Shown here in pieces: positions 3,366-62,338 of a stretch of 64,000 nucleotides of DNA. Origin of the DNA: Pomacea canaliculata. Its lineage: Eukaryota; Mollusca; Gastropoda; Architaenioglossa; Ampullariidae. A program made the position numbers and the translations under genes. The stretch's first letter is position 1. The number at the start of each line of letters is the position of its first letter. The notes under the pieces were generated by a model, which saw only the letters and a list, made by a program, of their open reading frames with translations, did no database searches and was not told where the DNA came from. The DNA is taken from the NCBI RefSeq assembly GCF_003073045.1, contig NC_037593.1, positions 15,694,735-15,758,734 of the forward strand, read 5' to 3'.

Positions 3366-5825
3366 ACACCCGCGGAAGGGGTTCAGTTCTTCAGAGATTA
3401 TGGTGTAAAAAAAAAGTGTACAGGGTGTTGGATTTTTGAATGAGATCGTAAAACTTTCTGAACTCAGAAGTCTGGCAGAGATACGTGCTACCACATGCAT
3501 TGCTCTCTCTCCGTCTGACCCGTGGCATGCCTGATACTCAGTCTTTTATGTCTGTTAATTCTGGAAAAGCGATTTTCAACCTTTTGTGAATATTCAGTCT
3601 GCTGTACCGTTTATGTTTTGCTGAAGATAAAAACTTGCCGTTACTTGCTCTCCTTTGAGAGCAACCTGTGAACGAATTGATTTAAAAAGGAGGAAACTCG
3701 GAGTTGTTACAGTCAACTATTTGAAATGTACCAGTTCGAATGCTTTGAACTCCCGTTACCTTCAAATCATTGTTTCCACAGAGGCTGTAAACATGTGGCT
3801 GTAATAAAAACAAGTGTTTCTATTGTCAGTTCTTATAAAGTAGCCTGCAATGTCTGTCCATCGTGAAATCGTTATTAATCAAACGTTAGTGCAGTTTCTT
3901 TGTGTAAAGATTGCTGGCTTTCATTACAATTGATGTTTTTTTTGAAAATATAATTTTGAGTTCATCACCTACATAGTTCTGATAGATTCTTGTGTTTCCA
4001 TGGGGACAAAACACTTTTGGTGTCCTTGTATCCAGTTACAGATCATGGACAATCTCTTTCCTGAGAAATGATTACTTTCACCACTTAAAAACAGGATATT
4101 CGTCTTTCCTTTTACTTAAAAGTGTGCCTCGTGCGACCGGCGCCAGCAAATGGACACACGAAGAGAAAAAGAGCGTTTTTTGCTTTTGCTTTTTTTTTTG
4201 TTTTTGCAGGTGTGACCAGGGGGAACGAATGGATTGATTTATTGATGACATTAGGATCCTGGTGGAAGAAAGTTCGAAGTCGACTTGCTCAGCTTTTTTT
4301 TTCGCTATCGCATCGGTGGTACCTGTGACCTAATGCCACGCACCTGACTAACCCCGGGAATTGTCATTAAGACGTAGGAGAGAGCACGTGGATGCGTGTA
4401 ACAGCGAGTGGACAGACTAGCGAACACTTTGTAAAGAAAAAAAAAAAGCTAAAAATGAAAGGGAAAACCGACCAAAGTTGTGATGATGATAACAATTAAT
4501 AATAAACACTGCAAGAACAATGGGAAAAGGAAAAAAGGAGATAATTTAAAGAAAGGCGTTAGCTAAGTAATGACTATACTGCAGATAAAGGTAAGAGAAA
4601 AGGCTGCAAATAAATGAACAATGTACATTCATGTCTATTAGTACAAGAAACGTTAGGGTTAGGCTAGCTGTTCTAATGAATGCTAGTCGCTGAACAATCG
4701 GTAAATAAAGCATTTCGCCTTGAAAAGCTGTCACGCGATGTAGATTGAATAGATATGCACAAAGAATTACAAAGCCAGGTAACTGTGGGGCGAATGGGTT
4801 ACCTGGTGCCTGGACACACCCTGTAAAAGCTCTGCTTGATATACAAACTAGATGACAAAGCCCTGGACACTTTGCAAACTCAGTGCAGGCGACAATGTAA
4901 AAAATCAGTTTTAGGCGAGGCAATACCCTCCTGAACAAAACTGCGATGAAGAAATTTGTATATCAGAGAATAATGACATCTCAGAAAAAAAAAAACTACT
5001 AAATTCACGTACATTCACACATACAATACTAATCAACACCAACCGCACGTTTATTTTTCTTTAGGTAAAATTTCATGAGTACGGGCGAAAAATGCAGCCA
5101 TTGGGACACTTCTTTCTTAAAAGAGAAATGATTTATGTTGGTCGCCATTGTTGTTGCCCAGCAATCTATGTTCTCCAGGATACCATGCGCTATGTAGAGA
5201 GAAAATAGACGCTTTTGATGTGATAGTTCTGAGCTTTCCACCACTTGTGACAGAAAGCCCTTCTTTGTGCATCGCACGTACAAGGGCTCCATGGTCCTCT
5301 CCAACTGGCGTATCCCGCCCTCCAAACTGCTCGAAAGTAGCATGACAATGGTTGCCTCTGTCCCACCTCACGCAGCATACAAACGACCTTACCCAGGCTG
5401 AACCAGGCCTGCTACTCTTGGTCTTAGGACTTGGTTTTTTGAAGATAACCAATCAAGGCAATTTATGGCATGAGCAAACATTTGAACATTCGCACATTTC
5501 AAACAGGACATATCGTGGACGACATGAAGCGCGTACTGGGGGAGGAAAGCAGATAGGGGCAAGTACAGGAGGATCAGGAGATGGCAGACGAAAGTGATTT
5601 TAAAACTTTTGTCAGTAGACTACAAGGACTGGAGCGTGTGTCACACTCAATACTTCTTTACTCTAGAACAGAAATCTGATAAGGTAATGTTGATGGTCTA
5701 TTACAGTGAGAAACACGCCAAACGAGCTTTTCACCATGAACGATCCTCCTCGCCTCAGGGTAATCTTTTGTGCATGAATACAGATTTTTCTAGATATGTA
5801 TGTGTGTGTCCCTATTTTCAGATTC

Positions 5826-6667
5826 AAATCCATCTTTGTCAAACTTCACAACATTATGAAATGCACCTTACTTTCGATGCCTTCAGCATGAAGACCTAAG
5901 ACAGATTCCCGCTGTTGAAAACCTTTTCTCTCACCAATTGTAAAACTTTCACCGTACCTTTCATCTGAGTTTACTGGACTGCTATCTTACAATTGTACTA
6001 AAAAAATATCCGGGAAGTTATTTGGTTTATTGCCAGTTGATAGGTTTCTTTCTATTTGATTGAAATGTTTGTTATAGGTTTACGCTTACTATGAATTTTA
6101 GATATCTATTTTCAAGCTGGCGTTGTTATTTAGTTCTACAAACGCTAAACGTCTGTCCATACTTCGCTATTGGTTTTAAATGCATCTCAAATTCGTACAT
6201 ATTTCTTAAATTATATTATTTTCTTTTTGGTTTGTCAGAGAGTGTGTTGGAATCGTGTGTTGGAATCGTTGTTAAATTGTATAAGTTTTTACTCGATCAC
6301 TGTCACCCACGCACACACGTTCGAATTCATGTAGGCAAGATTGTATATCTACAGCTTTTGTTTTAACTCTGCCGCGGAAATAAAAACAATTTGACTTCAC
6401 GTGACTTTCAACGCGCGCGCGACGTTTCTCCTCCACTAATGATTAAACTCATTCACGCCCTCGTGGCGGAGTCCGTCTCAATTCCTTTTGCGAGGATCAA
6501 TCGAAAATATTAGGAAAAGGCATGACAATTTTCGGTAAAGTAGTTTTCCGAAAAATATCTGTTATAATTTATTATCCTGAAGACTGTGAACTTGAGAGCA
6601 ATCCAGTAGATTGGAGTAAACATGTCTTGACACTACCCACCCATAGCCTGATCCACGAGTAGAGATC
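5826..6667. repeat. Array-upstream module, copy ahead of gene A
   Basis: This block contains two segments repeated through the array. The first has TTGTCA-ACTTCAC and CCTTCAGCATGAAGAC (5836-5912) and recurs, diverged, at about 12040-12170, 13200-13360, 17540-17710 and 34800-34955. The second has ATGTAGGCAAGATTGTATA (6330-6348) and recurs at about 12630, 18223, 20208, 26840 and 41860. A perfect E-box in a TCACGTGA context lies at 6398-6403, and the type III copies have the same CACGTG at 20301, 26931 and 41955, about 250-280 bases ahead of the promoter cassette. E-box binding by a bHLH-zip factor is inference. Confidence 0.55.
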
Positions 6668-12600: not shown

Positions 12601-12763
12601 TCTCTCCCAAAAGCACTTCCGATCATGAAAGCATGTAGTCAAGATTGTATAACTTGTTAGAGAAATAAAAACCTTACGCGAGCGCTGGCATGTTACTCCA
12701 CCCGTGACCGAGAGAAAGCTCTCCACCCTCTCTGATACTACTCACGCTCTACTCGTGGACATC

Positions 12764-12975
12764 GGTGTTTGTTGCATTACCATGGAAACTACTCTAATGA
12801 CAAATAAAAGCCTTGCAGATGATCTTGCGAGCCCAAATAGGGATTCGATCAGGAAGAACAAACAAACTGAAGAGAAACTTTTGCCTCGAAGTATTTTCAA
12901 TAATGTTATTACAGTGGACGGTACCACTGCACCGGGACTACTTTCCAAGATACTGACTGCACGAAATATCTAGAG
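12764..12975 (+). promoter_or_regulatory. Orphan promoter cassette upstream of gene B
   Basis: A perfect X-box ATTACC-AT-GGAAAC (12776-12789) is followed by AATAAAAG (12803-12810) and the start of a type II leader (GCGAGCCCA at about 12828). After about 12860 the leader changes to an unrelated dispersed sequence (GAGAAACTTTTGCCTCGAAG) that also occurs at about 19900, 34470 and 39850. The leader's donor is missing, so this looks like a duplicated cassette that lost its splice donor. It could still start transcripts reading into the cassette of gene B 570 bases downstream. Confidence 0.4.
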
Positions 12976-13361
12976 ACCGGTTCACCCATTGCACCGGGAG
13001 AACGTACCTCTCTCACAGAATAGAAGGAAAGAAGAAAGACAGAGAGAATACGAAAAGAGTGTGACTGGGCATATCTCTATCCGGCATAATCCCATACCGA
13101 AAATAAAAGGGTCACGTGGCTTTGTTACAAGTAACGGGCCTCCTCGTTGTGGGACATGCATGTCTTTCTTTGTTACATGAATGCAGGTCTTTATTTCTCT
13201 CCATGTGTGCACGTCTCTCTATTTTAATAACTATCATTGTGAATCTTTATTGTAAGTTTTGAAATGCCTTTTTGTCATACTACACTAGATGACGAACAAC
13301 ACTTTCATTATCAATGCTCTGAGCATGGAAACTTAAAACATCGATGCCTGCCATTGGAAAT

Positions 13362-13551
13362 CGATGTTTGTTGCGTAACCATAGACAACAATCCTAGAGA
13401 CAAATAAAAGCCTTGCGGAATATCTGGCGAGCCCAGACGGGGATCGAATCAGGGAGAACCCGTGAGTCAGGGTTTCCCTCCCAGCAGAAGTGAAAAAAGA
13501 AACCAAAAGTACAAGTTTACTTTCTAGACGTTTAATCCTTTTATTAGGAAG
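13362..13551 (+). promoter_or_regulatory. Promoter cassette and leader exon of gene B
   Basis: X-box-like GTAACC-ATA-GACAAC (13375-13389, one mismatch) is followed by AATAAAAG (13403-13410) and a leader with GCGAGCCCAGACGGGG, ending in GGAAG|GTAAGT (exon end 13551). The intron to the coding exon is short, about 410 bases; the likely acceptor is CACTAG at 13965. The matching segment in front of gene E is deleted. Confidence 0.5.
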
Positions 13552-13971
13552 GTAAGTTTTGATTTTTTACTGCAGAAGTTTTATCTTCTGAACTTTGAAT
13601 ATCGACAATGTTTCTCTTTTAAAAAACACAATTACAAGAACGGAGTAAGCTTTCAGAAAAGTTTATTTTCTACTTGGCCTTTTCTTTGTGTTATTATTTT
13701 GCCGATGTCTGCAACACCTTGTTATTATTGATATGTAAATGTTAATGTTTACTGTTAAATTTAATTGCTTAAGATAAAGATCGTTCATATTTATTTTCTA
13801 CCAATTATCGAACAACGTCCTTTGTAAGCTTATTATGACTATGTTAATTAGTCGTAATGATAAATCCTGGCACCCTCGGTATGTATTATGTATAAAAAAA
13901 AAAAAAAAGAGGCATAAACAGCACTTTAAAAATTGTAACCTGCTCTTGACTGTCGAAGACACTAGGGGAGG

Positions 13972-15406
13972 ATGCCCGTGTACCAGCCCAAGGTTCCTGT
14001 CTGTGTGGCCATCGGATGTAGCGCGGTGGCCTTGGTGTGCCAGTTCGTGGCTGTAGTCGGAACCGGGTGGATGACATCGACCCTTTATGGTTCATCCCAG
14101 TCTGGGCTGTTCTGTGCTAAAGGCAGTTGTGATAATGATACTGGAGGTAAGTGTATGTCAACTCGATCTAACATTTGTTAGAGATTCGTCTTCAGTGTCC
14201 ATGATTGTCAATACGTAAATTTGCAGCCAATCTCTCAGAAGAATAAAAGAGAAAGACAGAGAAAGAATGTGGGATACAGATTAAAAACGAGACATAGAAG
14301 AGGAAATTAACAAAAAATAGGGAGCGAGAGAGAGCTGTCAAACCGTTAAGTACGAGAGGGTAATAGTAATGGTGTGAAGGCACTCCTGTCTAAAAAGCAA
14401 ATGAGACAATTTTTAAACTCCTTTTTCAAACTTCATAATTTTCTTCATATTACCTTTTGATGAAGGCTGTCAGTATTTGGTTATTTGATAAACTCTAGTG
14501 CCTACTGAGGTGTTTCTAGACCTCAACACGTGATTTGTTTAGATGGTGGCTGGATAAAAGCTTGCCAGGCCTTCTCCATTCTGGCACTGCTGACTATTAC
14601 CGCCAGTCTTGTTCTCGGAGTTGTCCACATCTTCAAAGAAGACACACAGAAGCTGACACTTCTTGCTCGGCTTTGCAGTCTTGCCGCGGGTAAGATGTGA
14701 GAGGTTTATCTTCCTTTTTCTTCTACCTCCTTCATATCTCTCTCTCTCTCTAACTACTCTTTATATATATTATTCAATTTATTCAGTCTTTTTTCTATGC
14801 CTTTCTTTCGCCTCATTGTCTTAACGTTTTGCTTTTATATGTAAACAGGATTGTCAGTTAATGCGACTGTATATTCGTGTGTCTATTGGGAGAAAATTTT
14901 CAGATGTTTATTATTTCTTTAAGTTATTTGGCAAGTGTATATTAGTGTATGTTTTGATGAGCTAGATTGGGTGCCTGCGTATGTGCGTGTGTATTAGAAG
15001 TAAAGGTGTTTATGACAGAAAGACTATGCTAGCTTGCTGTGTATTCATGCGTAGGTACATGTGCTCGTATTTTTGCACACTGTGTACTTTTGCTTGTGTG
15101 GGTGAGTGGGCAAGTAACCTACTTTTTGTCCTGTATTTTCGTTTTTTTCAAAACTCGATAAACAATCTATGTGATAAAGATATACAATATACAGAAAAGA
15201 GGCTTGAAGTCAGAGACTTGCTCAATATGTTGATCTCTGCTTCTTTTCCAGCCGTTTGCGTGGCAGTGGAAGTGGGAGTATACCTCGGTAAAACTTTATC
15301 GGGTGTCATTCAACTTTGGCCTGTGCTTTTTTACGGGTACTGCTTCTTCCTGTCAGTCGTTGCTGGTATCTTGATGATCGTGGCCGTCATCCTTCATAAG
15401 CCTTAA
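13972..15406 (+). CDS. Gene B: claudin-like four-pass membrane protein, type II
   Basis: Coding exons 13972-14146, 14543-14689 and 15252-15406, again all phase 1, encode 158 residues starting MPVYQPKVPV. Membrane segment 1 spans about residues 9-31. The loop motif is GLF-C (45-48) with the partner Cys at 53, so the usual GLW Trp is Phe and the first Cys sits directly after it. Exon 2 (GGWIKACQAF onward) gives segment 2 and the start of 3; exon 3 ends in ILHKP then TAA. The type differs in sequence from types I and III but keeps length, intron phases and positions, so it is an older paralogue. Poly(A) signal AATAAA is at 15892-15897. Gene E is its near copy. Confidence 0.82.
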
Positions 15407-15899: not shown

Positions 15900-18800
15900 T
15901 TAAGCTGTTTTTAATATGCACGTGTTGTTCAGATGTTTAGACTGGCTGCAGTCTCCAATGGTCCTTCTGTCTCTCCAACACACACACACTGATTCTCCTC
16001 TGCCTATCAGGCTGTACAGTGGCGAGTTATGTGAACAAATGTAAAGGTAATCACGTAAACTTTTCATTCTGTGGATGATGTTATTTCAGAAATGGTCAGC
16101 CACCCAGGGGACTTGATTACTGCATCTGAGCCGCCAAGGAATCTTGGAGAAGATGATTAGAAACTAAACTTATTGCCTCTCATTCGATCATAGACCACCG
16201 TATGTGACTTACCTTGTGATTAGCTTCGTACCTTGACTACCCTGTATAGACCCACTCAGCAAACAACTAGTCAAGCCTTGGACAGTGACCTTTCAGAGGC
16301 AGGAAGGTATAGACTTCAAATAATCTGAAGACCCCCCCCCCCCGACCTACCGTAACGGGAGAATGTACCTCCGTTACAGAAGACAAGGAAAGAATAAAAA
16401 GACAGAGAAAATAAGAAAAGAGTGTAACTGAGCAGTTCGCTAGCCCGTGTAGTTTTTCTACATAGCACAGAGTGGATAGCAGAGAAGATAAAGAATACAA
16501 GTTCATAATTAACAATTACAACACTACTTTATTATTGTTACTACAACAATTTCATACAAACTTCTACTACCTATCTTGTCCTCTAATCAGTTTCATCAAT
16601 CAAAAAACAAAACAATCAAAATGCCAATCTCTATCCTACCCTCAAAGAACCAATACTAAGAGTTCAGAATGGTTTATTCTCAGATTACCAATAACGCACA
16701 TCGTATGTTAAGACCAAAGTCAGCTCACTACAGTAATAGTGGATAAAAAAATAGTTTATTGTTAATGATCTATATTACAGTGGTTGCCGCCAGTGATGCC
16801 AACATCACTCAACGTGTAAAAGAATCAGCCCATGATGACTGGTGACTGGCTGTTAATTTTGTTTTACGACTTTAACAACCTTTTATGACAGTTACATTTG
16901 CACCATTGAACAGTAGGATGTTTGATAGACAACATGAAGCTGTGAGTACAAAGTGAAAGCAGTGAGTAGTGGAGGACAAGGGACGAGACAATAAGAATTA
17001 CAAGAATACTAATTTTCCACGAAAAGAAATCTTATTGTGTAATATTAACCACATCTTAGCGATGAGATATTCGCGAGAATGAACGTAATACGACCCTTTC
17101 TAGACGATCGGGTGGTCAAGTTTTGTTTTTTTTTTTACTTTGAATGTGCAAGAAATATGTAGCTACTACAAAGTCCATAGCTTGCAGGTTACGTAAAGCT
17201 CATTATTCATGCCGAGGAGGTGGAGAGAAACAACTTGTAAACACATTATACACAAGGTGCGCGTCGTATTCGGGGTAGGGGCAGACCGGGTGCTGTCTTT
17301 GTGAACTAGAATTACAGAAGTGTTGCAGTCTAAATGAACTTAACTGTGAAAGGTTACGATGAGTTCAACCTTTCTGTCAGAATGCACACCTGGCTAGATT
17401 GGTGTCGCAAACAAGGAAGTCGCCATTACCGTGAGAAACTTGTAAAGTGAGCCTTTGACTAGTGTCCTCCAGCCATGGAAATGACTAGATCTGTCTGGTT
17501 ACACGAATACAGTTTTTTTTTTGTTAATCTGTTTTGATGCGCGCACACCTCTCTCTCTCTATCTTCCAATGTCTCTAAGAGTATAACCCTATTGTCAGAT
17601 TTGCAATGTCCTTTTTGTCACACTGCACACTATGATCCAATGCACCTTCCTATCCAATGCCTTCAGCATGAAGACTTAGGACACAGATTTCTGCCATTGA
17701 AATATTTATCTCACCAATCTGACTTTACCCTCTCAGGTTTGCTCTATGATGCACCTTACCTTACCTGAGAAGCCACATATATCAACTGTTTTTAGACAAC
17801 GGAACACTGATTATGTCAGGAGTTAAGACAAGGCAAAGTTATCTTATTTTTTATTCGTTTACTGACGCCGTTGTTAGTGGAAACTTTTTTGACATTTATA
17901 TATGACATCAACTTTAACTGTTCATCTTAAAGTTGTGTGAGTTGTGTTTAACTCTCTAATTCCTGTGGCCACATCTCTTGAAATACTAATTTTTGTTTAG
18001 TTTTGTTTGTGTGCGTAATGGCGTGTGCAACGAGTGAACACTTTGTAGAATAAACGCAAAGTACTGGTGGAGAACCAGAAATACTATGATATAATAAACA
18101 AACGAGAAAATAGTGAATATTAATCATAAAAAAAATATCTGTATAACTTCTTCACTGACCTTCAGTGACAAGTATGCACAGAAAGAAGAGAAAGACAACT
18201 CTCAAGCACACTCACTCATGTATGTAGGCAAGACTGTATAGCTGACAGACACTCTATAAGAAACACATTCAAATGCTACTTTCAGCATTAAAATTGTCCT
18301 TTTTTCAGTTATTCTCAAAGAATCCTACATAGCATTTTAAGGAAAAGAGTAGAAAATATCCCTTAGATATTTAACAAGTAACTGTTTTTTACCTCGAGTA
18401 ATGGCAGTCTTTAAACATCTACTCGATTGTTGTAGTTTATCAGGGTCGGAAGATGTTTCCTATCACTTATCAAAGCCTCGACTTGGGCGAAATTAAATAA
18501 AACAATTACCTCGCCTGTTCATATCTCTATTTATTCATACGCTGAAGAAGCAAGAGGACTTTTAGTTGCTGTAAAAGCGTTTTCTTCCTCGGTCTATCCC
18601 TACATATAATTGATGGAATGTCTTGGTCGGGAGCATTTATGTCTTGAGTCCTGTCGGTGTTTAAATCGGAGACAACCGTTTCCCAGTGTCGTTTTATTTT
18701 TACAATTTGCTGTAGGTGTCTTAGACTTGATCTTTCCTAAGATTACCCATAAGACAGTGGGATCACATGCCCTTTGTTGGAATGGTAATAGGTCTGGGAA

Positions 18801-20697: not shown

Positions 20698-21432
20698 GTA
20701 AGTTTGATTTTATTTCAGTTTTTTGAACGTTGACCATAGACGTTTTTCATTAAACAGCAATTCTGTGGATAGAGAATTTTTTTCAAAAGGGAATATTAGT
20801 TGTTTATTTTTTACCCAGTTGTTTGTCTTTGTTGTTACTCTGCAGGACAACAGTGGTCTGCAGCATTTTAATATTACATGAAAAGTAAACGTCGTTAATT
20901 ACTTTGAAATCTTAAATGTCTTTTCAAATATTGCTAATTAAATTTATTACCATTCCTCTTTTCTTTGCTGGTTTCTCTTTTATTCCTACGTTTCATCCCT
21001 CCATCCATCGCTCCATCAATCCTTACAACCATAAAGGGGGTCGCTCCATCCGATACCGGGATTGGTCCCTAACATATCTACCTCCCCAAATATCTGTGGA
21101 CTGCTCGACCTGTCGTTCTGAGAGAACACCCCCGCTGCCGAGCAGAACGAAAAAAAAAATGAAAGAATGAAAGAAGGACAGAGAATTTGAAAAGAGTGTC
21201 ACCGTACACCTCACTACGTGGGTCCTCTTACTGACACACTGGGAGCTACGAGCCTTTGTTACATTAGATAGAGAGCAATGATAAGGACGAGAATAAATAA
21301 CACAGCATAATTCATGATCTGCAATACTACTTTATTAATTCTTCTACAACAATTAAATACAATCGTCAGCTGTCCATCCTTGAGTTAAACCTTAGGAGCT
21401 CAAAGTATGCTCCAGAGGAGTGTGAGTGAGCT

Positions 21433-21600
21433 TTCTTATTCTTATTCTTATTCTTATTCTTATTCTTATTCTTATTCTTATTCTTATTCTTATTCTTATT
21501 CTTATTCTTATTCTTATTCTTATTCTTATTCTTATTCTTATTCTTATTCTTATTCTTATTCTTATTCTTATTCTTATTCTTATTCTTATTCTTATTCTTA
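21433..21600. repeat. Hexanucleotide microsatellite (TTCTTA)n, about 28 units
   Basis: A nearly perfect 6-bp repeat. The same place holds (ATT)28 in the copy ahead of gene D (28121-28204) and a degenerate ATT/GTT tract ahead of gene F (43107-43172). All open frames across it are artefacts. Confidence 0.95.
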
Positions 21601-22246
21601 AACCTGCTTTTGTCAACTACGTTTCTTACTTCCCCAGCTGAACTCTCGGCCCTCCACAAGGCGTGTGACTACAAACAGCAAGCCACAAATTTTTTATTTA
21701 TATTTTCTTCTTCTTGTTAAACTTAACAATTTTCCTTTATCTGTCTTCGCTGCTACGTCGGTGTGGCTTCGTTGGCTCATTCTAGTGAAGCTGGCTTCTT
21801 TCATTTTGTAAATGACTTTTTGTTTTCGTTTTACATCACTGCTGCCACCCGTTTGAAACCGTCATGAAAAAAGCGTGTTTGCTCCCAGTTTCCTCCAACT
21901 GTGGAGTGGGTACCTGGTTTCATTGAAGTTTGGAGAAGACAAGGCAGCGAGGGACAGGAGATGGGTATCACCCACCCTTACAAAATAACTTGTCCCGATA
22001 GGGGCTTTAAGACGCCTTATCCCCTCGACTGTAAAGTCACAAAACACAAAATCTTTCTTCCAAACCATCCTCTCTCTGACCTTTGCTGCACAAACTTCCC
22101 ATCTCTACTTTTTGAAGCTGTGTTTGTGTGTGTTTGCATGCATACGTTTGTTTAATTTGTATGTAACTAAGAACACATCCGCGTTACTCTGACTTTATGT
22201 CCATCAGTCCACAAGCAATCAAAAAGACACGCTTTAATCCCTTAAC

Positions 22247-27337: not shown

Positions 27338-28119
27338 GTAAGTTTGATTTTATTTCATATTTTTGAACGTTGACCATAGACTTTTTTCATTAAACAACAG
27401 TTCTGGAGACAGAGAAGTTTTTTTCAAAATGGAAAATTAGTTGTTTTATTTTTTACCCAGTTGTTTACTTACATTGCAAGAAAAAAATATCTGCAGCATT
27501 TTAATATTACATGAAAGGTAAACGTTGTTAATTACTGTGAAATCTTAAATGTCTTTTCAAACATTGCTCATTAAATTTATTACCATTCCTCTTTTCTTTG
27601 CTGGTGTCTCTTTTATTCCTACGCTACATCCCTCCATCCATCTCTCCATCAATCCTTACAACCATAAAGGGGGTCGCTCATCCGATACCGATATTGGTCC
27701 CTTACATATCTGCCTCCCCAAATATCTGTGGACTGCTCGACCTGTCGTTCTGAGAGAACACGCCCCGCTGCCAGAACAGAACGAAAAAAATATTTTAAAA
27801 AATGAAAGAATGAAAGAAGGATAGAGAAGGAAAAAAAGAGTGTCACCGTACACCTCACTACGTGGGTCCTCTTACCCGATACATTGGGAGGCACGTGCCT
27901 TTGTTACATTAGACTGAGAGCATAGATAAGGACGAGAAGATAGTAGCGAATAAATAACACAACATAATTCATCGTCTACAATACTACTTTATTAATACTT
28001 CTAGGATTAGTTACAATTAGTAACAATTAGTTACAAACGGCATATCTATCCTCGAGCTAAACTTTAAGCTCTAAAAGTATACTCCTGAGGAGCGTGAGTA
28101 CGCGCTTTATGAATTTCGC

Positions 28120-28120
<1 letters not shown>

Positions 28121-28204
<84 letters not shown>
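28121..28204. repeat. Trinucleotide microsatellite (ATT)28
   Basis: Perfect ATT repeat at the position that holds TTCTTA units ahead of gene C. The poly-asparagine frame on the minus strand is an artefact. Confidence 0.95.
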
Positions 28205-28205
<1 letters not shown>

Positions 28206-29103
28206 GTCTGCTTTTATGAGCTACATTTCTTACTTCCTCAGCTGAACTCTCGGCCCTACACAAGGGCCGACTACATCTCTGTCTCCACGAAGTGTCGTTT
28301 CATCCTAGTGAAGTTGCCTTTGTTTATTAAGTAAACGACTTTTTGTTATCGCTTTACATCACTGCTACCACCCTTGTGAAACCGCCATGAAAAAGCGTGT
28401 TTTCCCCCAGTTTCCTCCAGCTGTGGAGTGGGTTCCTGGTGTCATTGAGGGTTGGAGAAGACAAGGCAGCGAGGGACAGGAGATGGGTATCACCCACCCT
28501 TACAAAATAACTTGTCCCGATAGTGGGGCTTTAAGACGCCTTATCCCCTCGACTGTAAAGTCACAAAACGGCCGTTTGTTCTTTCCTCCAAACCATCCTC
28601 TACTTTTTCTGCACAAACCTCCCGTCTCTCCTTTTTGCAGCTGTTTGTGTGTGTTTGCATGCATACCTTTGTTTAGTTTGTAACTAAGAACACATCCGCC
28701 TAACTCTGACTTTTTGTTCAACAACAACAAACATTAAGGAGTAGCTCACACTTTCAGCTTTCAAATGTAAGGGGAGCAGGTTACCCCACTTCTCTGGGAA
28801 CTGCATTGATTACCTTTTCGCACTAGTGCCACCCTGTTTTGAAGACCTTGTTTCCTCCCACCTGACTTGCCAACACCCAACCAGTCAGGTAACCTTCAAG
28901 CGCTGAACTGAACTTCCCTCTCAGTACAGCAGCATTGACAGTCTAGTGTGTCGTTTTGAGTCCAGGTCTTAAAGATCCTTTTATATTTCATTACTCTTTG
29001 GGTCCTAACTAGTCATCATCAACAACAACAATAACAACAACAAACAGTCCATTGCTGATGACAGAATCCTACTTTTGCCTCAGGACAAGGACCAACAGCT
29101 AAC

Positions 29104-32594: not shown

Positions 32595-34345
32595 CTGGTA
32601 ATGGTCTCATCGACACGGAGACAGACGGACAGACTGGGGATATCGAGAAAAAGACTAAGCTGCGAGAGAAACACAGAAACGCACACACACACACACGCAC
32701 AGACACAAGGTATCTCAAGTACCTGTGTGATTGCGATATCTGTGCTTGTACTTGCTTCATGCACCTATAAACAAAGACAAGTGACAGCGTGCAACCTAGT
32801 AACTCAGATGTCGGGATCCCGGCTGTTGCTCCTACGTGACTAACACCCTTTCATATACATCCAGGAGACCAGGATAAGATAGTTCAAATAGAGGAAAGCA
32901 TGAGATACGGGTATATCCACCCTCTATCCTAGCAGCCCTGTCATAGTACACGCTTTCACGCAAACTAAATTCCTAATAACTGTAAAGGAATTTAAAGCTG
33001 GTCAACTGCTTGCAAACGGCATTTCTTTTGTACAACAACCCAGTCTAATGAATGTTCTGGTTACTGTTACTCATTGAATATAATGTTGTGGAAACTCGTG
33101 GACATGCGCACTCGACTCACAGTGCGTGGGTCTGCTTTCTTACAAGGTTGTTTCGAGAAAAAGAAATAAATGTAATCGTGATATCGCTCGTTCCATAGCC
33201 TCGTCGTTATCACCAGGACACGTCAGCTCATGTCTACATTCTCATTCTCACTGACTTGTCCAAGGAGTTAAAGGATTACAGACAAGGGTTAACCTGAAAA
33301 AGAGGAGCTATGATTTTGATGTTAGTTTTCCTTAGACGACCGTGTGCAGGTGCCAAACTATCTTATCACAATCACAAAAACTTAAAACAAAGTAGTTATC
33401 GTCTAACACGTTGCCTTCCTGTTGCTTCACTGTGTTATGTTTGTTGATTGCGTTTCCATGGACATGTTTACTGAGACCAATAAAAGGCTTCACGGCGTTC
33501 TAGGAGAACAGAAGTTTTTCGGATTCATTTGGCTATCAGGTGTCAATTAAGTGCTTTTGATAGAAAGTTTTTTTAAGGTAAGTTACCCTACTTATTTAAG
33601 TTGATTTCTAGATTTCTTTTGTTTTTGTTTACAAGCTGGTTTTTTAAATTAATTTCTACGTCTAAGCTGGATCATGCTGTCTTTTTCTTTTTCTTCACCT
33701 TTACAGACTGAATAATAAATATTAAATAATTAATCCAGAAAAATTTAACGCTAGAAATATAAAGTGTATGACTGGCAGTCACAAAGTGAGTCCTAACTCG
33801 GAGATACATCGTACATCAAGATGGGAACTACGAGAGACTTGAACACTTTGGTAGAAGGGTTGCCTTTCTGGGTTCAAGATCGTTTCATCCATCTCTTTTC
33901 TATCTTGCTACACTTAAGCCAGAAAAGGTATTCCACTGGCCTACAGAAATCATTGATAGAAATTTTTTTATAAAAACAAACACACCTTAGAAGGGAAAAA
34001 AACTATAAATATTAACCCACACCTGGAATGGAATCATGAGTAGAGCAGGGAAGTGAAGACTGAGTCGGACACTCAAACAGCCCACTACGACTGGAGACAT
34101 CGACATGCCGCGACTGTTGACCTCTGACCTGCTACTCATGACCTCACACATGTGGACTCGCAACGTGGAGAGATTGATAGATCTCAAAGTACTAGGGAAT
34201 CAGTTACAACTGCCAGAGATAATTTTATGTGCGTATGTGAGAGTTAACAGCCCTGCAACATTTGGAAGTACGGATAGCAGTGGTAACCTTTGTTGTATTT
34301 TGCATCCGTTGTATGTTTAGTAAATCTCTTTTCGGTCATATTTAC
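32595..34345. repeat. Segmental duplicate of the region upstream of gene G
   Basis: About 1.7 kb is collinear with 48110-49815 and visibly very similar, including CACA tracts, the promoter cassette (33452) and the start of the leader intron. Similarity ends near 34345, before any coding exon of a type I gene, and the sequence then changes to type II upstream DNA. The cassette therefore now lies ahead of gene E. Confidence 0.8.
33438..33577 (+). promoter_or_regulatory. G-type promoter cassette and leader exon ahead of gene E
   Basis: Degenerate X-box GTTTCC-ATG-GACATG (33452-33466), AATAAAAG (33479-33486) and a leader ending TTAAG|GTAAGT (exon end 33577). It is the near twin of the cassette of gene G (48922). 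It is the closest upstream cassette to gene E, whose own type II cassette is deleted; the resulting leader intron would be about 1.9 kb to the acceptor at 35487. Confidence 0.45.
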
Positions 34346-35493
34346 TTTGTTCATGTGTTCCGACTTTTTTTTTGTCCTCCTGTCTCGCATTGGTCATTAA
34401 AAATATCCCTTGGCGTTAGATAAAACAAAATACAAACAAACAAACAAGCAAAAGAACCTCAAACAAACTGAAGAGAAACTTTTTACTCGAAGTACTTTCA
34501 ATAATGTTATTACAGTGGACGGCGCCACGCTACCGGGGTTCGTTTCCAAGATACTGACTGCACAAAATATCTAGAGACTGCTTGACCCATTGCACCGATC
34601 GAACGTACCTCTCTTTCAGAATAGAAGGAAAGAAGAAAGACAGAGAGAATAAGAAAAGAGTGTGACTGGGCATTTCTCTACCCGGCATAACCCCATACCC
34701 AAAATAAAGGAGTCACGTGACTTTGTTACAAGTAACGGGCCTCCTCGTTGGGGGACATGCATATCTTTCTTTGTTACATGAATGCAGGTCTTTATTTCTT
34801 TCCATGTGTGCACGTCTCTCTATTTTAATAACTCTATCATTGTGAATCTGTACTGTAAGTTTTGAACTAGGTTTTTGTCATACAATAATAGATGACGAAC
34901 AAAGCTTTCCTTATCAATGCCCTGAACATGGAAACTTAAGACATCGATTCCTGCTTTTTACTGAAGAATTATTTTCTGAACTTTGAATATCGGTAATGTT
35001 TTGTTTGTTTTTTTGTTTTTTTTTTTTAAAGAAAACACAATTACAAGAATGGAGAAAGCTTTGAAAAGAGTTTATTTTTTACCTGGCCTTTTCTTTGTGT
35101 TATTTTTCAAATGTTTGCAGCACCTTGTTATCATTGAAATATAAATGTTAATGTTTACTGTTAAATTTAATTGCTTAAGATATAGAAGAATAACTTCTAA
35201 AATATTACTTATTCTTATTTTGCTTTTTTACTCTTTAGTTGTTTTTTTTAAAATTTTATGTCCATACATCTGAACAATCTTATTTGCTTTAGTCATTTTT
35301 TCGTTTATATTTATTTTCTATGAACTATTGAAAAACTTCCTTTGTAAGTTTATTATGACTATGTTAATCAAGTCTTAATGATAAATCCTGGCACCCTCGG
35401 TATGTATGTATAACCCCCCCCCAAAAAAAAAAGGCATAAACAGCACTTTAAAAATTTTAACCGGCTCTTGATTGTCGAAGACACTAGGGGAGG

Positions 35494-36896
35494 ATGCCCG
35501 TGTACCAGCCAAAGGTTCCTGTCTGTGTGGCCATCGGATGTAGCGCGGTGGCGTTGGTGTGCCAGTTCGTGGCTATGGTCGGAACCGGGTGGATGAAAAT
35601 GTTGGGGTCATCCCAGTATGGGCTGTTCTGTACTAGCGACATTTGTAATTTTGGTACTGGAGGTAAGTGTACATCAACTCGATCTAACATTTGTTATAGA
35701 TTCGTCTTCAGTGTCCATGATTATCAATACGTAAATTTGCATCCAACCTCTCAAAAGAAAAAAAAACAACTAAGAGAGACAGACACGGGAAAGAATGTGG
35801 GATAGAGATTAAAAACGAAACATAGAAGAGGAAATTAACAAAAACTAGGGAGAGAGAGAGAGCTTTGAAACCGTTAAGTACGAGAGGGAAATAGTACTAT
35901 GGTGTGAAGGCACTCCTGTCTAAAAAGCAAATGAGACAATTTTTAAACTCCTTTTTTAGACTTCATAATTTTTTATATTACCTTTTGATGAAGGCTGTCA
36001 GTATTTGGTTATTTGATAAACTCTAGTGCCTACTGAGGAGTTTCTGGACCTCAACACGTGATTTGTTTAGATGGTGGCTGGATAAAAGCTTGTCAGGCCT
36101 TCTCCATTCTGGCATTGCTGACTATTACCGCCAGTCTTGTTCTCGGAGTTGTCCCCATCTTTAAAGAAGACACACAGAAGCTGACACTTCTTGCTCGGTT
36201 TTGCAGTCTTGCCGCGGGTAGGATGTGAGAGGCTGATTTTCCTTTTTTCTCCCTCATCCCTCTCTTTCACAACTCTTTCTATATATATTTTTTTCTCATG
36301 TTATTCAGTAGTTTTTTTTCCAATTCCTTTCTTATGCCTCATTGTCTTAACGTTTTGCTTGTCTGTAAACAGGCGTGTCAGTTAATGCGACTGTATATTC
36401 GTGTGTCTATTGGGAGAAAACTTTCAAATGTTTATCAATTCTTTACATTATTTAGCAAGTGTTTGCTTTTGTATGTCTTGAAGAAAGAGAGGTGTTTGTA
36501 ACAGAAAGACTATGCTCGTTTTTCTCTGTATTCATGCCTAGGTACGTGTGCTCGTAGTTTTGCACATTGTGCACATTTGCTTGTGTGTATGTGGGCAAGT
36601 AACCTACTTTTTGTCCTGTAATTCGCTTTTCTTTAGCACTTGACAAACAATCTATGTGATAACGATATACAATATGAAAGAGGGTTGAAATAAAAGACAT
36701 GCTCAGTATGTTGATCTCTGTTTCTTTTCCAGCCGGTTGCGTGGCAGTGGAAGTAGGCGTGTTCCTTGGTAAAACTGTAGGAGATGTCATTCAACTTTAT
36801 CCTCTGCAATTTTACGGGTATTGCTTCTTCCTGTCAATCGTTGTTGGTATCTTGATGGTCGTGACCTCCATCCTTCATAAGCCAGAAGCGACCTAA
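35494..36896 (+). CDS. Gene E: claudin-like four-pass membrane protein, type II
   Basis: Exons 35494-35662, 36071-36217 and 36733-36896, phase 1, encode 159 residues from MPVYQPKVPV. Membrane segment 1 matches gene B except Val28 to Met, and exon 2 differs in only two residues (H to P, L to F). The first loop (MKMLGSSQYGLFCTSDIC) and the second loop (VGDVIQLYPLQ) differ sharply. The tail has three extra residues (EAT). Donor of intron 2 is GTAGGA rather than GTAAGA. The B-type promoter cassette is missing. The 3' UTR holds about 165 bases (about 37000-37180) that B lacks. Poly(A) signals at 37544 and 37558. Confidence 0.8.
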
Positions 36897-48109: not shown

Positions 48110-49815
48110 CGGGCGGACACAGAGACAGACGGACAGACTGCGGATATCGAGAAAAAGACTAAGCTGCAAGAGAAACACACAAACGCACACACACACACAC
48201 GCACAAACACAAGGTATCTCAAGTACCTGTGTGATTGCGATATCTGTGCTTGGATTTGCTTCATAACACCTGTAAACAAAGACAAGTGATAGATGTCGAG
48301 ATCCCTGCTGTTGCTGCTACGTGAATTTCACGACCACGCAGGAGACCAGGATAAGATAGTTCAAATTGAGGAAAGCATGAGATACGGGTATATCCACCCT
48401 CTATCCTAGCAGCCCTGTCATCACACACGCTTTCACGCAAACTAAGTTCTTAATAACTGTAAAGGAGTAAAGATGTTCAAGTGCTTGCAACGGACATTTC
48501 TTTTGTACAACACCCCAGTCTAATGAATGTTCTGGTTACTGTTACTCATTGAATATAATGTTGTGGAAACTCGTGGACATGCGCACTCGACTCATAATGC
48601 GTGGGTCTGCTTTCTTCAAAGGTTGTCTTGAGAAAGAGAAGAAAATGTGATCGCGATATCGCTCGTTCCATAGCCTCGTCGTTATCACCAGGACACGTCA
48701 GCTCCTGTCTACATTCTCATTCTCAGTGACTTGTCCCAAGGAGTTAAAGGATTACAGATAAGGGTTGACTTGAAAAAGAGGAGCTATGATTTTGATGTTA
48801 GTTTCCTTAGACGATCGTGTGCAGGTGCCAAACTATCTTATCACAAAAACTTTAAAAAAAAAACCAACAGAATAGTTATCGTTTGGCACCTTGCCTTCAC
48901 TGTGGGATGTTTGTTGATTGCGTTTCCATGGACACGTTTACTGAGACCAATAAAAGGCTTCACGGCGTTGTTGGAAAACAGAAGTTTTTCGGATTCATTT
49001 GGCTATCAGGTGTCAATTAAGTGCTTTTGAGAGAAAGTTTTTTAAGGTAAGTTACCCTACTTATTTAAGTTGATTTCTAGATTTCTTTTGTTTTTGTTTA
49101 CAAGCTGGTTTTTTAAATTAATTTCTACGTCTAAGCTGGATCATGCTGTTTTTTTCTTTTTCTTCACCATTACAGACTAAATAATAAATATTAAATAATT
49201 AATCCAGAAAAAATTAAAGCTAAAAATATATAGTTTGTGACTCACAATCACAAAGTGAGTCCTAACTCGGAGATACATCGTACATCAAGATGGGAACTAC
49301 GAGAGACTGGTACACTTTGGTAGAAGGGTTGCCTTTCTGGTTTCAAGATCGCCTCACCCATCTCTTTTCTATCTTGCTACACTTTAGCCAGAAAAAGGTA
49401 TTCCACTGGCCTACAGAAATCATTGATAGAAATTTTCTATAAAAACAAACACACCTTAGAAGGGAAAAAACTATAAATATTAACTGCTGCCCACACCAGG
49501 AATGGAACCATGGGTAGAGCAGGGAAGTGAAAACTGATAGTCGGACCCTCAAACAGCCCACTACGAGTGGAGTCATTGACGTGCCGCGACTGTTGACCTC
49601 TGACCTGCTACTCATGACCTCATTACACATGTGGACTCGCAACGTGGAGAAATTGATAGATATCAAAGTAGTAGGGAATCAGTTACAACTGCCAGAGATA
49701 ATATTATGTGTGTATGTGAGAGTTAACAACCCTGCAACTTTTGGAAGTACGGATAGCAGTAGTAACCTTTGTATCCGTTGTATGTTTATTAAATCTGTTT
49801 TCGGTCATATTTACT
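48110..49815. repeat. Region upstream of gene G, duplicated at 32595-34345
   Basis: Includes a CACA tract (48188-48206), the promoter cassette and the first 750 bases of the leader intron of gene G. Small frames on both strands are shared with the other copy but have no domain. Confidence 0.8.
48907..49046 (+). promoter_or_regulatory. Promoter cassette and leader exon of gene G
   Basis: Degenerate X-box GTTTCC-ATG-GACACG (48922-48936), AATAAAAG (48949-48956) preceded by GACC, leader ending TTAAG|GTAAGT (exon end 49046). The leader intron would run about 1 kb to the acceptor GTTTCAG at 50077. Confidence 0.45.
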
Positions 49816-50086
49816 TTGTTCGTGGAAGAGCAGGTGTAGGGACTCCTGAACTGCGTGTCGATGTTCGTACGTAACGTTTCCCGGTAGTATTATGTTAATG
49901 TGGGCGAAAAGAGCTACGTCACAACTGTCACCCACCTGCAATGTTTGACTTCCGACGAGAAAACGCGGAACAATACAACTAGGAGAGGGCAGAACATCTC
50001 CTCAACATCTTCATCGACATCAGTCATGAAACGGTACATGGAAAACAAAATCTTTTTTTGTTTTGCCTCGGTTTCAGGTAACAAAC

Positions 50087-53640: not shown

Positions 53641-62181
<8,541 letters not shown>

Positions 62182-62221
62182 CGCGACGATGATGACGAAA
62201 AGGAGTATATATATATATAGT

Positions 62222-62338
62222 GATGGAGGTGGCAAGACTTCCCGCTGTCCACAGCTGCTTGAAAGAGGTGGCAAGAATTCCCGCTGTCCACAGCTGCTTG
62301 ATGGAGGTTCCAAGACTTCCCGCTGTCCACAGCTGCTC
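62222..62338 (-). repeat. 39-bp tandem repeat, 3 copies, in the channel 5' leader
   Basis: Units begin at 62222, 62261 and 62300 and share CCCGCTGTCCACAGCTGCT. They lie 40-157 bases upstream of the channel ATG. The 13-codon period keeps the channel frame open upstream, but there is no in-frame ATG, so the repeat is most simply 5' UTR or promoter. Confidence 0.85.

Follow-up and report, generated by a model that had tools for sequence, protein, structure and literature searches.

Tandem duplication in Drosophila yakuba is described as a source of chimeric genes and of UTR and promoter shuffling, often with altered expression (Rogers et al. 2017, PMC5460883). The locus analyzed here, an array of tandem genes in the snail Pomacea canaliculata, is alike in that the 5' regulatory part of one tandem gene stands on the body of another and a change of expression is expected. 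It differs from the variants described in that report (PMC5460883), which are polymorphic, many of them very young, and tested by RNA-seq, whereas the parts of the snail locus are 6-9% diverged and come from two subfamilies, and the original cassette is deleted. The event itself is of a known kind, promoter capture or regulatory shuffling by tandem duplication; the two successive promoter replacements that appear to be readable in one gene lineage are unusual. A narrow search of the literature on P. canaliculata claudins and on gastropod RFX/X-box found no earlier description of the array.

On the evidence below, gene E of this array is probably a chimeric tandem duplicate driven by a G-type cassette and expressed in the pattern of gene G, not in that of its duplicate, gene B. 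The deletion, the structure and the direction of change, as read from the alignments, are the well-supported parts of this reading.

A tandem array of two claudin-like subfamilies

The window, that is, the whole stretch of 64,000 nucleotides that was analyzed (C4:15694735-15758734, read on the + strand), contains seven tandem three-exon genes, all on the + strand, with the following start codons.

9297, + strand, ATG of gene A
13972, + strand, ATG of gene B
23024, + strand, ATG of gene C
29104, + strand, ATG of gene D
35494, + strand, ATG of gene E
44149, + strand, ATG of gene F
50087, + strand, ATG of gene G

Genes A, C, D, F and G form the type I subfamily (MGFK...), and B and E belong to the P-type subfamily (MPVYQPK...), the remaining members of which lie west of the window. 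In a tree of 72 residues, B and E form a cluster (support 0.81) with the gene at window coordinate -57380, at a great distance from type I; specifically, the gene B protein is 83% identical to the product of that gene and 28-35% identical to the type I proteins. The array proteins are claudin-like membrane proteins and resemble the PMP22/EMP/MP20/claudin superfamily (PF00822) in size, about 160 aa. Measured against the curated PF00822 (PMP22_Claudin) cut-off of 26.7 bits, type I gene C scores 51.4 bits, gene B 24.3 bits, just under the cut-off, and gene E 13.8 bits, well below it. GLW is a claudin signature, and the P-type proteins have GLF where type I has GLW. The claudin-like protein of gene E is 159 aa long and is encoded by three exons.

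35494..35662, + strand, coding exon 1 of gene E
36071..36217, + strand, coding exon 2 of gene E
36733..36896, + strand, coding exon 3 of gene E, to the stop

The window and the western stretch together comprise 203,734 bases with no N among them, the genome searches covered 440,159,624 bases in 24 contigs, and Rfam gave zero matches within the window. Several further features were observed in and around the array. On the minus strand, two exons at 54674-56917 match Ion_trans_2 (ion channel) and are probably part of a two-pore potassium channel gene adjoining the array; additionally, an open frame at 61786-62337 resembles, as judged by eye, the start of that putative channel gene. Intron 1 of gene C contains a long six-base repeat (21430-21668) that reads FLFLFL/NKNKNK, and in the matching intron of gene D a single codon (N) is repeated at 28057-28299. 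In a western P-type gene (C4:15663059-15664700, window about -31675 to -30035), the promoter block and an exon 1-like stretch are shifted ~1.2 kb upstream and the exons, as joined here, are out of frame; this is possibly another rearranged or dead copy, or an exon border wrongly set here.

Promoter cassettes and the region upstream of gene E

Genes A, B, C, D, F and G have in common a block that consists of an X-box-like element and a AATAAAAG or TTAAAAG box, followed by a leader and the donor AAG/GTAAGT. The X-box consensus is GTNRCC N0-3 RGYAAC near the core promoter. A scan for this consensus together with A[AT]AAAAG found the cassettes of A, B and a truncated B copy and missed C, D, E, F and G, among which C, D and F escaped because their TATA-like box differs; the scan was replaced by a profile. 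The cassettes of A and B may be compared with RFX-type X-box promoters that have a TATA-like core, since a near-consensus X-box (11/12 consensus positions) stands ~29 bp before AATAAAAG; the truncated B copy agrees at 10/12 positions, and the cassettes of E and G differ from this type, with <10/12. The X-box label, which an earlier note on this DNA used for B, is weak for E and G.

The cassette profile, built from eight aligned cassette cores and run over the 203,734 bases, gave eight matches, at 6665, 12761 (truncated), 13360, 20538, 27177, 33437, 42192 and 48907, with the next best at an E-value of 0.4; west of the window there was no match with an E-value below 0.1. The match at 33437, upstream of gene E, kept an E-value of 1.3e-13 when E was left out of the profile and of 1.7e-8 when both E and G were left out, against 0.16 for the best non-cassette match in the 203,734 bases, and thus does not arise by chance. 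The gene B cassette and its truncated copy, when both were left out, scored 9.4e-13 and 2.5e-6. The features that bear on gene E are as follows.

12761..12857, + strand, second, truncated cassette upstream of B (cassette profile)
13352..13563, + strand, cassette of gene B with its leader exon and donor, absent from E (alignment and cassette profile)
32612..34355, + strand, copy of the gene G 5' region (upstream, cassette, leader exon, donor and first 0.77 kb of intron 1)
33437..33490, + strand, G-type cassette core, with X-box-like TTTCCATGGACA, and AATAAAAG at 33479-33486
33509..33577, + strand, predicted leader exon with an assumed start 28 bp past TAAAAG and the donor AAG/GTAAGTTA
34356..34459, + strand, junction stretch of 104 bases that separates the G copy from the B-like block, partly CAAA-repeat
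34460..34954, + strand, B-like upstream flank of E, 89.9% identical to 12859-13351
34954..34955, + strand, probable deletion point in E, join CCTGC/TTTTTACTG
34955..35236, + strand, relic of type I intron 1 in E (profile and alignment)
35427..35493, + strand, end of the old P-type 5'UTR in E (P-type profile), best acceptor AAG at 35480
48907..49046, + strand, cassette plus leader exon of gene G, matching the E-side copy (cassette profile)

B and E are duplicates and were aligned end to end. B 12862-13351 and E 34463-34954 are 90% identical; the next 212 bases of B (13352-13563) are absent in E, and the alignment restarts at B 13564 / E 34955. The missing piece includes the X-box-like element, the AATAAAAG box, the leader exon and the donor AAG/GTAAGT. 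This agrees with the earlier observation that the sequence upstream of E jumps at about 34955 and lacks the promoter and leader of B, and it corrects the extent given there, about 215 bases (13350-13565), to exactly 212. The join at 34954/34955 lies outside any long repeat and has no visible microhomology. The truncated cassette (12761-12862) stands 0.6 kb upstream of the B cassette and ends about where the B-E homology starts (12859/34460), so that a break lies at the same left edge in the B and E copies. The B/E upstream flank also carries a dispersed repeat at 12907-13129 (part 46-268 of the genome-search query 12862-13351), for which 18 of 20 genome matches fall outside the array; it is perhaps a SINE.

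Farther upstream of E, 32612-34355 (1.74 kb) is 89.7% identical to 48116-49824, the 5' region of gene G. The ATG of G lies 263 bp beyond the copied region, so the copy is without a G coding exon, just as the earlier note had described a 1.7-kb duplicate that stops before any type I coding exon. The same note had named a G-type cassette (33452) as the nearest one to E, and the profile, which places it at 33437-33490, bears this out: no cassette match occurs in 33578-35494 among the 16 best matches listed. When the genome was searched with the cassette part 33438-33590, the only matches were this stretch itself and G. The E-side cassette and leader differ from those of G at 5/139 aligned bases and by one 1-base indel, leaving boxes and donor intact, and are not significantly better conserved than the flanks (5/139 vs 100/1545, p=0.27). 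The junction stretch, searched as 34356-34480, matched itself and three short pieces of 30-52 bases. Gene E is in structure a chimeric tandem duplicate, in which the 5' regulatory part comes from G and the coding part from a B-like gene, and the 212-bp deletion together with the absence of a cassette match in 33578-35494 marks the loss of its own promoter. The non-coding difference between B and E (219/2412 columns) exceeds that between the G copies (105/1684; p=0.001, counts rebuilt from identities) and so suggests a younger age for the G 5' copy than for the B-E duplication; gene conversion may distort such a comparison, and we do not lean on this point.

Predicted transcript and coding sequence of gene E

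Transcription of E from the G-type cassette would start near 33509, and the leader 33509-33577 would be spliced over 1.9 kb to an acceptor at 35480/35481, just before the ATG. Scored with a weight matrix from the 44 internal acceptors of the array, the site 35487/35488, to which the earlier note had joined the leader at 35488, reaches only -11.5 bits and gives way to 35480/35481. The latter (AAG at 35480) scores 4.0 bits, compared with 4.5 for its B equivalent, and falls between the 10% and 25% quantiles of the 44 internal acceptors (median 11.5, 10% quantile 2.6, one left out at a time); a score this high is reached by 5.7% of 12,109 AGs. Stronger AGs stand in the E intron, at 35031, 33706 and 35292, and speak against clean splicing. 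The same matrix, however, gives no more than 0.24 bits to the visible acceptors of type I genes C and D, so a low score does not settle the matter. Once spliced, the predicted leader (33509-33577 plus 35481-35493) contains zero ATG, and use of the acceptor at 35292 would leave upstream ATGs in it. All 7 predicted spliced leaders, including that of E, are without ATG (0 vs 14.1 expected), a count that places the start 28 bp behind the box, takes a single acceptor before each ATG, excludes the truncated copy and treats leaders that are related, not independent. In this respect the leaders behave as 5'UTR.

The main alternative, which we consider unlikely, is that E has lost its promoter and is expressed little or not at all, as a recent pseudogene of still intact appearance. 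The earlier note had allowed for silence, and part of the evidence fits it: the own cassette of E is deleted, the acceptor is weak and stands among stronger decoy AGs, E scores under B on the family profile (13.8 vs 24.3 bits), and replacements occur at conserved sites, e.g. a Pro in E where B and three other aligned P genes have His. The coding sequence makes silence less likely. The frame of E is open over 159 codons in three exons with intact GT/AG splice sites, so that E carries no broken frame or splice site of a pseudogene. Frame-shifting indels between B and E number 29 in 2412 non-coding columns, from which 5.7 would be expected in 471 coding bases, and 0 were seen; the absence has p=0.003 for both lineages and only about 0.06 for E alone. 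Replacements between B and E are scarce in the first segment and exon 2 taken together (~4/187 sites) relative to the rest of exon 1 plus exon 3 (~31/166; p=1e-7), where the four coding parts were fixed before counting and pooled into two groups after the counts were seen; the first segment and exon 2 alone give p=0.017, with the grouping likewise chosen after the counts. The overall dN/dS is 0.57 (LWL85) or 0.76 (NG86) and not significantly <1 (p=0.38), and an outgroup assigns 7 changes to E and 5 to B, leaving 15 undecided (p=0.77). The intact frame and the concentration of replacements outside the first segment and exon 2 argue against a long silence of E. The B-E differences (35494-36896 vs 13972-15406) lie mostly in exon 3 and in the second part of exon 1, which would be the extracellular loop if the claudin topology holds.

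Less likely again is a local promoter directly before the E ATG with an unspliced 5'UTR. The 71 aligned bases before the ATG are 95.8% identical between B and E, compared with about 91% over 2412 other non-coding columns, and a GCATAAA element before the ATG is common to several P-type genes. This element was considered as a TATA box and demoted, for a better TATA-like element lies ~250 bp upstream in a block that is absent in E. Specifically, the alignment of several western P-type genes, judged by eye, shows a TATA-like element some 250 bp upstream of the start codon. A profile built from the 330 bp preceding the ATG in eight western genes finds its eight training genes, the shifted copy at -31675 (3e-45) and, as partial copies, -69622 and -74073; in B and E it finds only the last 66 positions, at 13905-13970 in B (E-value 0.021) and at 35427-35492 in E (positions 302-367, E-value 8.3e-4), so that the western ~300-bp promoter block is represented in both genes by its last 66 bp only. 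Just before the E ATG there is no cassette match either. An unspliced transcript from 35000 would carry 11 ATGs before that of E and one from 35400 still 2, which leaves 35410-35490 for such a start.

Direction of change and proposed successive promoter replacement

The sequence past the join argues that E lost a cassette, for it can be aligned with intron 1 of A, C, D and F. Besides these four genes, a profile of their intron starts finds at E<=1 only B 13567-13762 (7.7e-10) and E 35034-35166 (5.3e-5), and E 35070-35236 matches C at 20802-20980. A genome search with the B cassette gave, among the best candidates scored, two other matches, A (83% over 113/213 bases) and 12756 (79%). A recent insertion into B is unlikely, because this search brought up no close source when set against the 9% B-E divergence. 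Since E retains type I intron sequence past the join and the B cassette is without a close source in that search, E most likely lost an inherited cassette rather than B gaining one. The flank before the join matches the region upstream of A (5769-5912) and several other places in the array, 17489-17694 more strongly, and thus has little say on direction. That E keeps the old state and B gained its cassette by insertion is very improbable: the missing piece does coincide closely with the functional cassette and the join lacks microhomology, but the retained type I intron and a best source of 83% over about half the length, against a 9% B-E non-coding difference, speak against it. An assembly error in the tandem array, by collapse or uncollapsed haplotypes, is just as improbable, for although the genome is described as highly heterozygous (1-2%) and assembled from long reads (PMC6129957) and the junction stretch 34356-34459 has a CAAA repeat, the differences of 9% between B and E and 6% between the G copies exceed that reported heterozygosity, no N occurs in 203,734 bases and the deletion join is not in a long repeat.

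With loss from E as the favored direction, B itself becomes informative. Its cassette and the intron behind it match those of type I genes A, C, D and F. As the P-type block is reduced to 66 bp in both genes and no cassette match with an E-value below 0.1 lies to the west, the B/E ancestor would have swapped its P-type promoter for a type I one. B thus seems to combine a P-type gene with a captured type I cassette, and E would represent a second swap. Because the B cassette is itself type I-like, E would have exchanged one such promoter for another, the larger swap having preceded this in the ancestor that B and E share. The earlier proposal that E, compared with B, came under type I control is modified accordingly: the G-type cassette is the only recognized replacement, but B's own cassette is type I-like too.

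The proposed history runs as follows. The common ancestor of B and E would already have had a type I cassette (X-box-like and TATA-like boxes, non-coding leader exon and donor) in place of its own promoter, and the P-type claudin-like coding part of E would have been duplicated along with B. The 1.7-kb copy of the G 5' region would have come to lie just upstream of E, and the 212-bp deletion would have removed the inherited cassette of E. E would then be transcribed from the G-type cassette and follow the expression of G instead of that of B. More tentatively, and somewhat short of even confidence, the locus may be one of promoter exchange, in which cassette-plus-leader modules move between two old claudin-like subfamilies; one coding lineage would have been rewired twice, from P-type to type I in the B/E ancestor and to the G subtype in E, while coding sequences go on changing, fastest in exon 3 and in a loop part of exon 1.

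Should E follow G and not B, the array would hold two successive promoter replacements with the donor, the recipient and the deleted piece still readable, and the locus would directly test how much of the expression in a tandem membrane-protein family is set by the first intron and the leader cassette by themselves.
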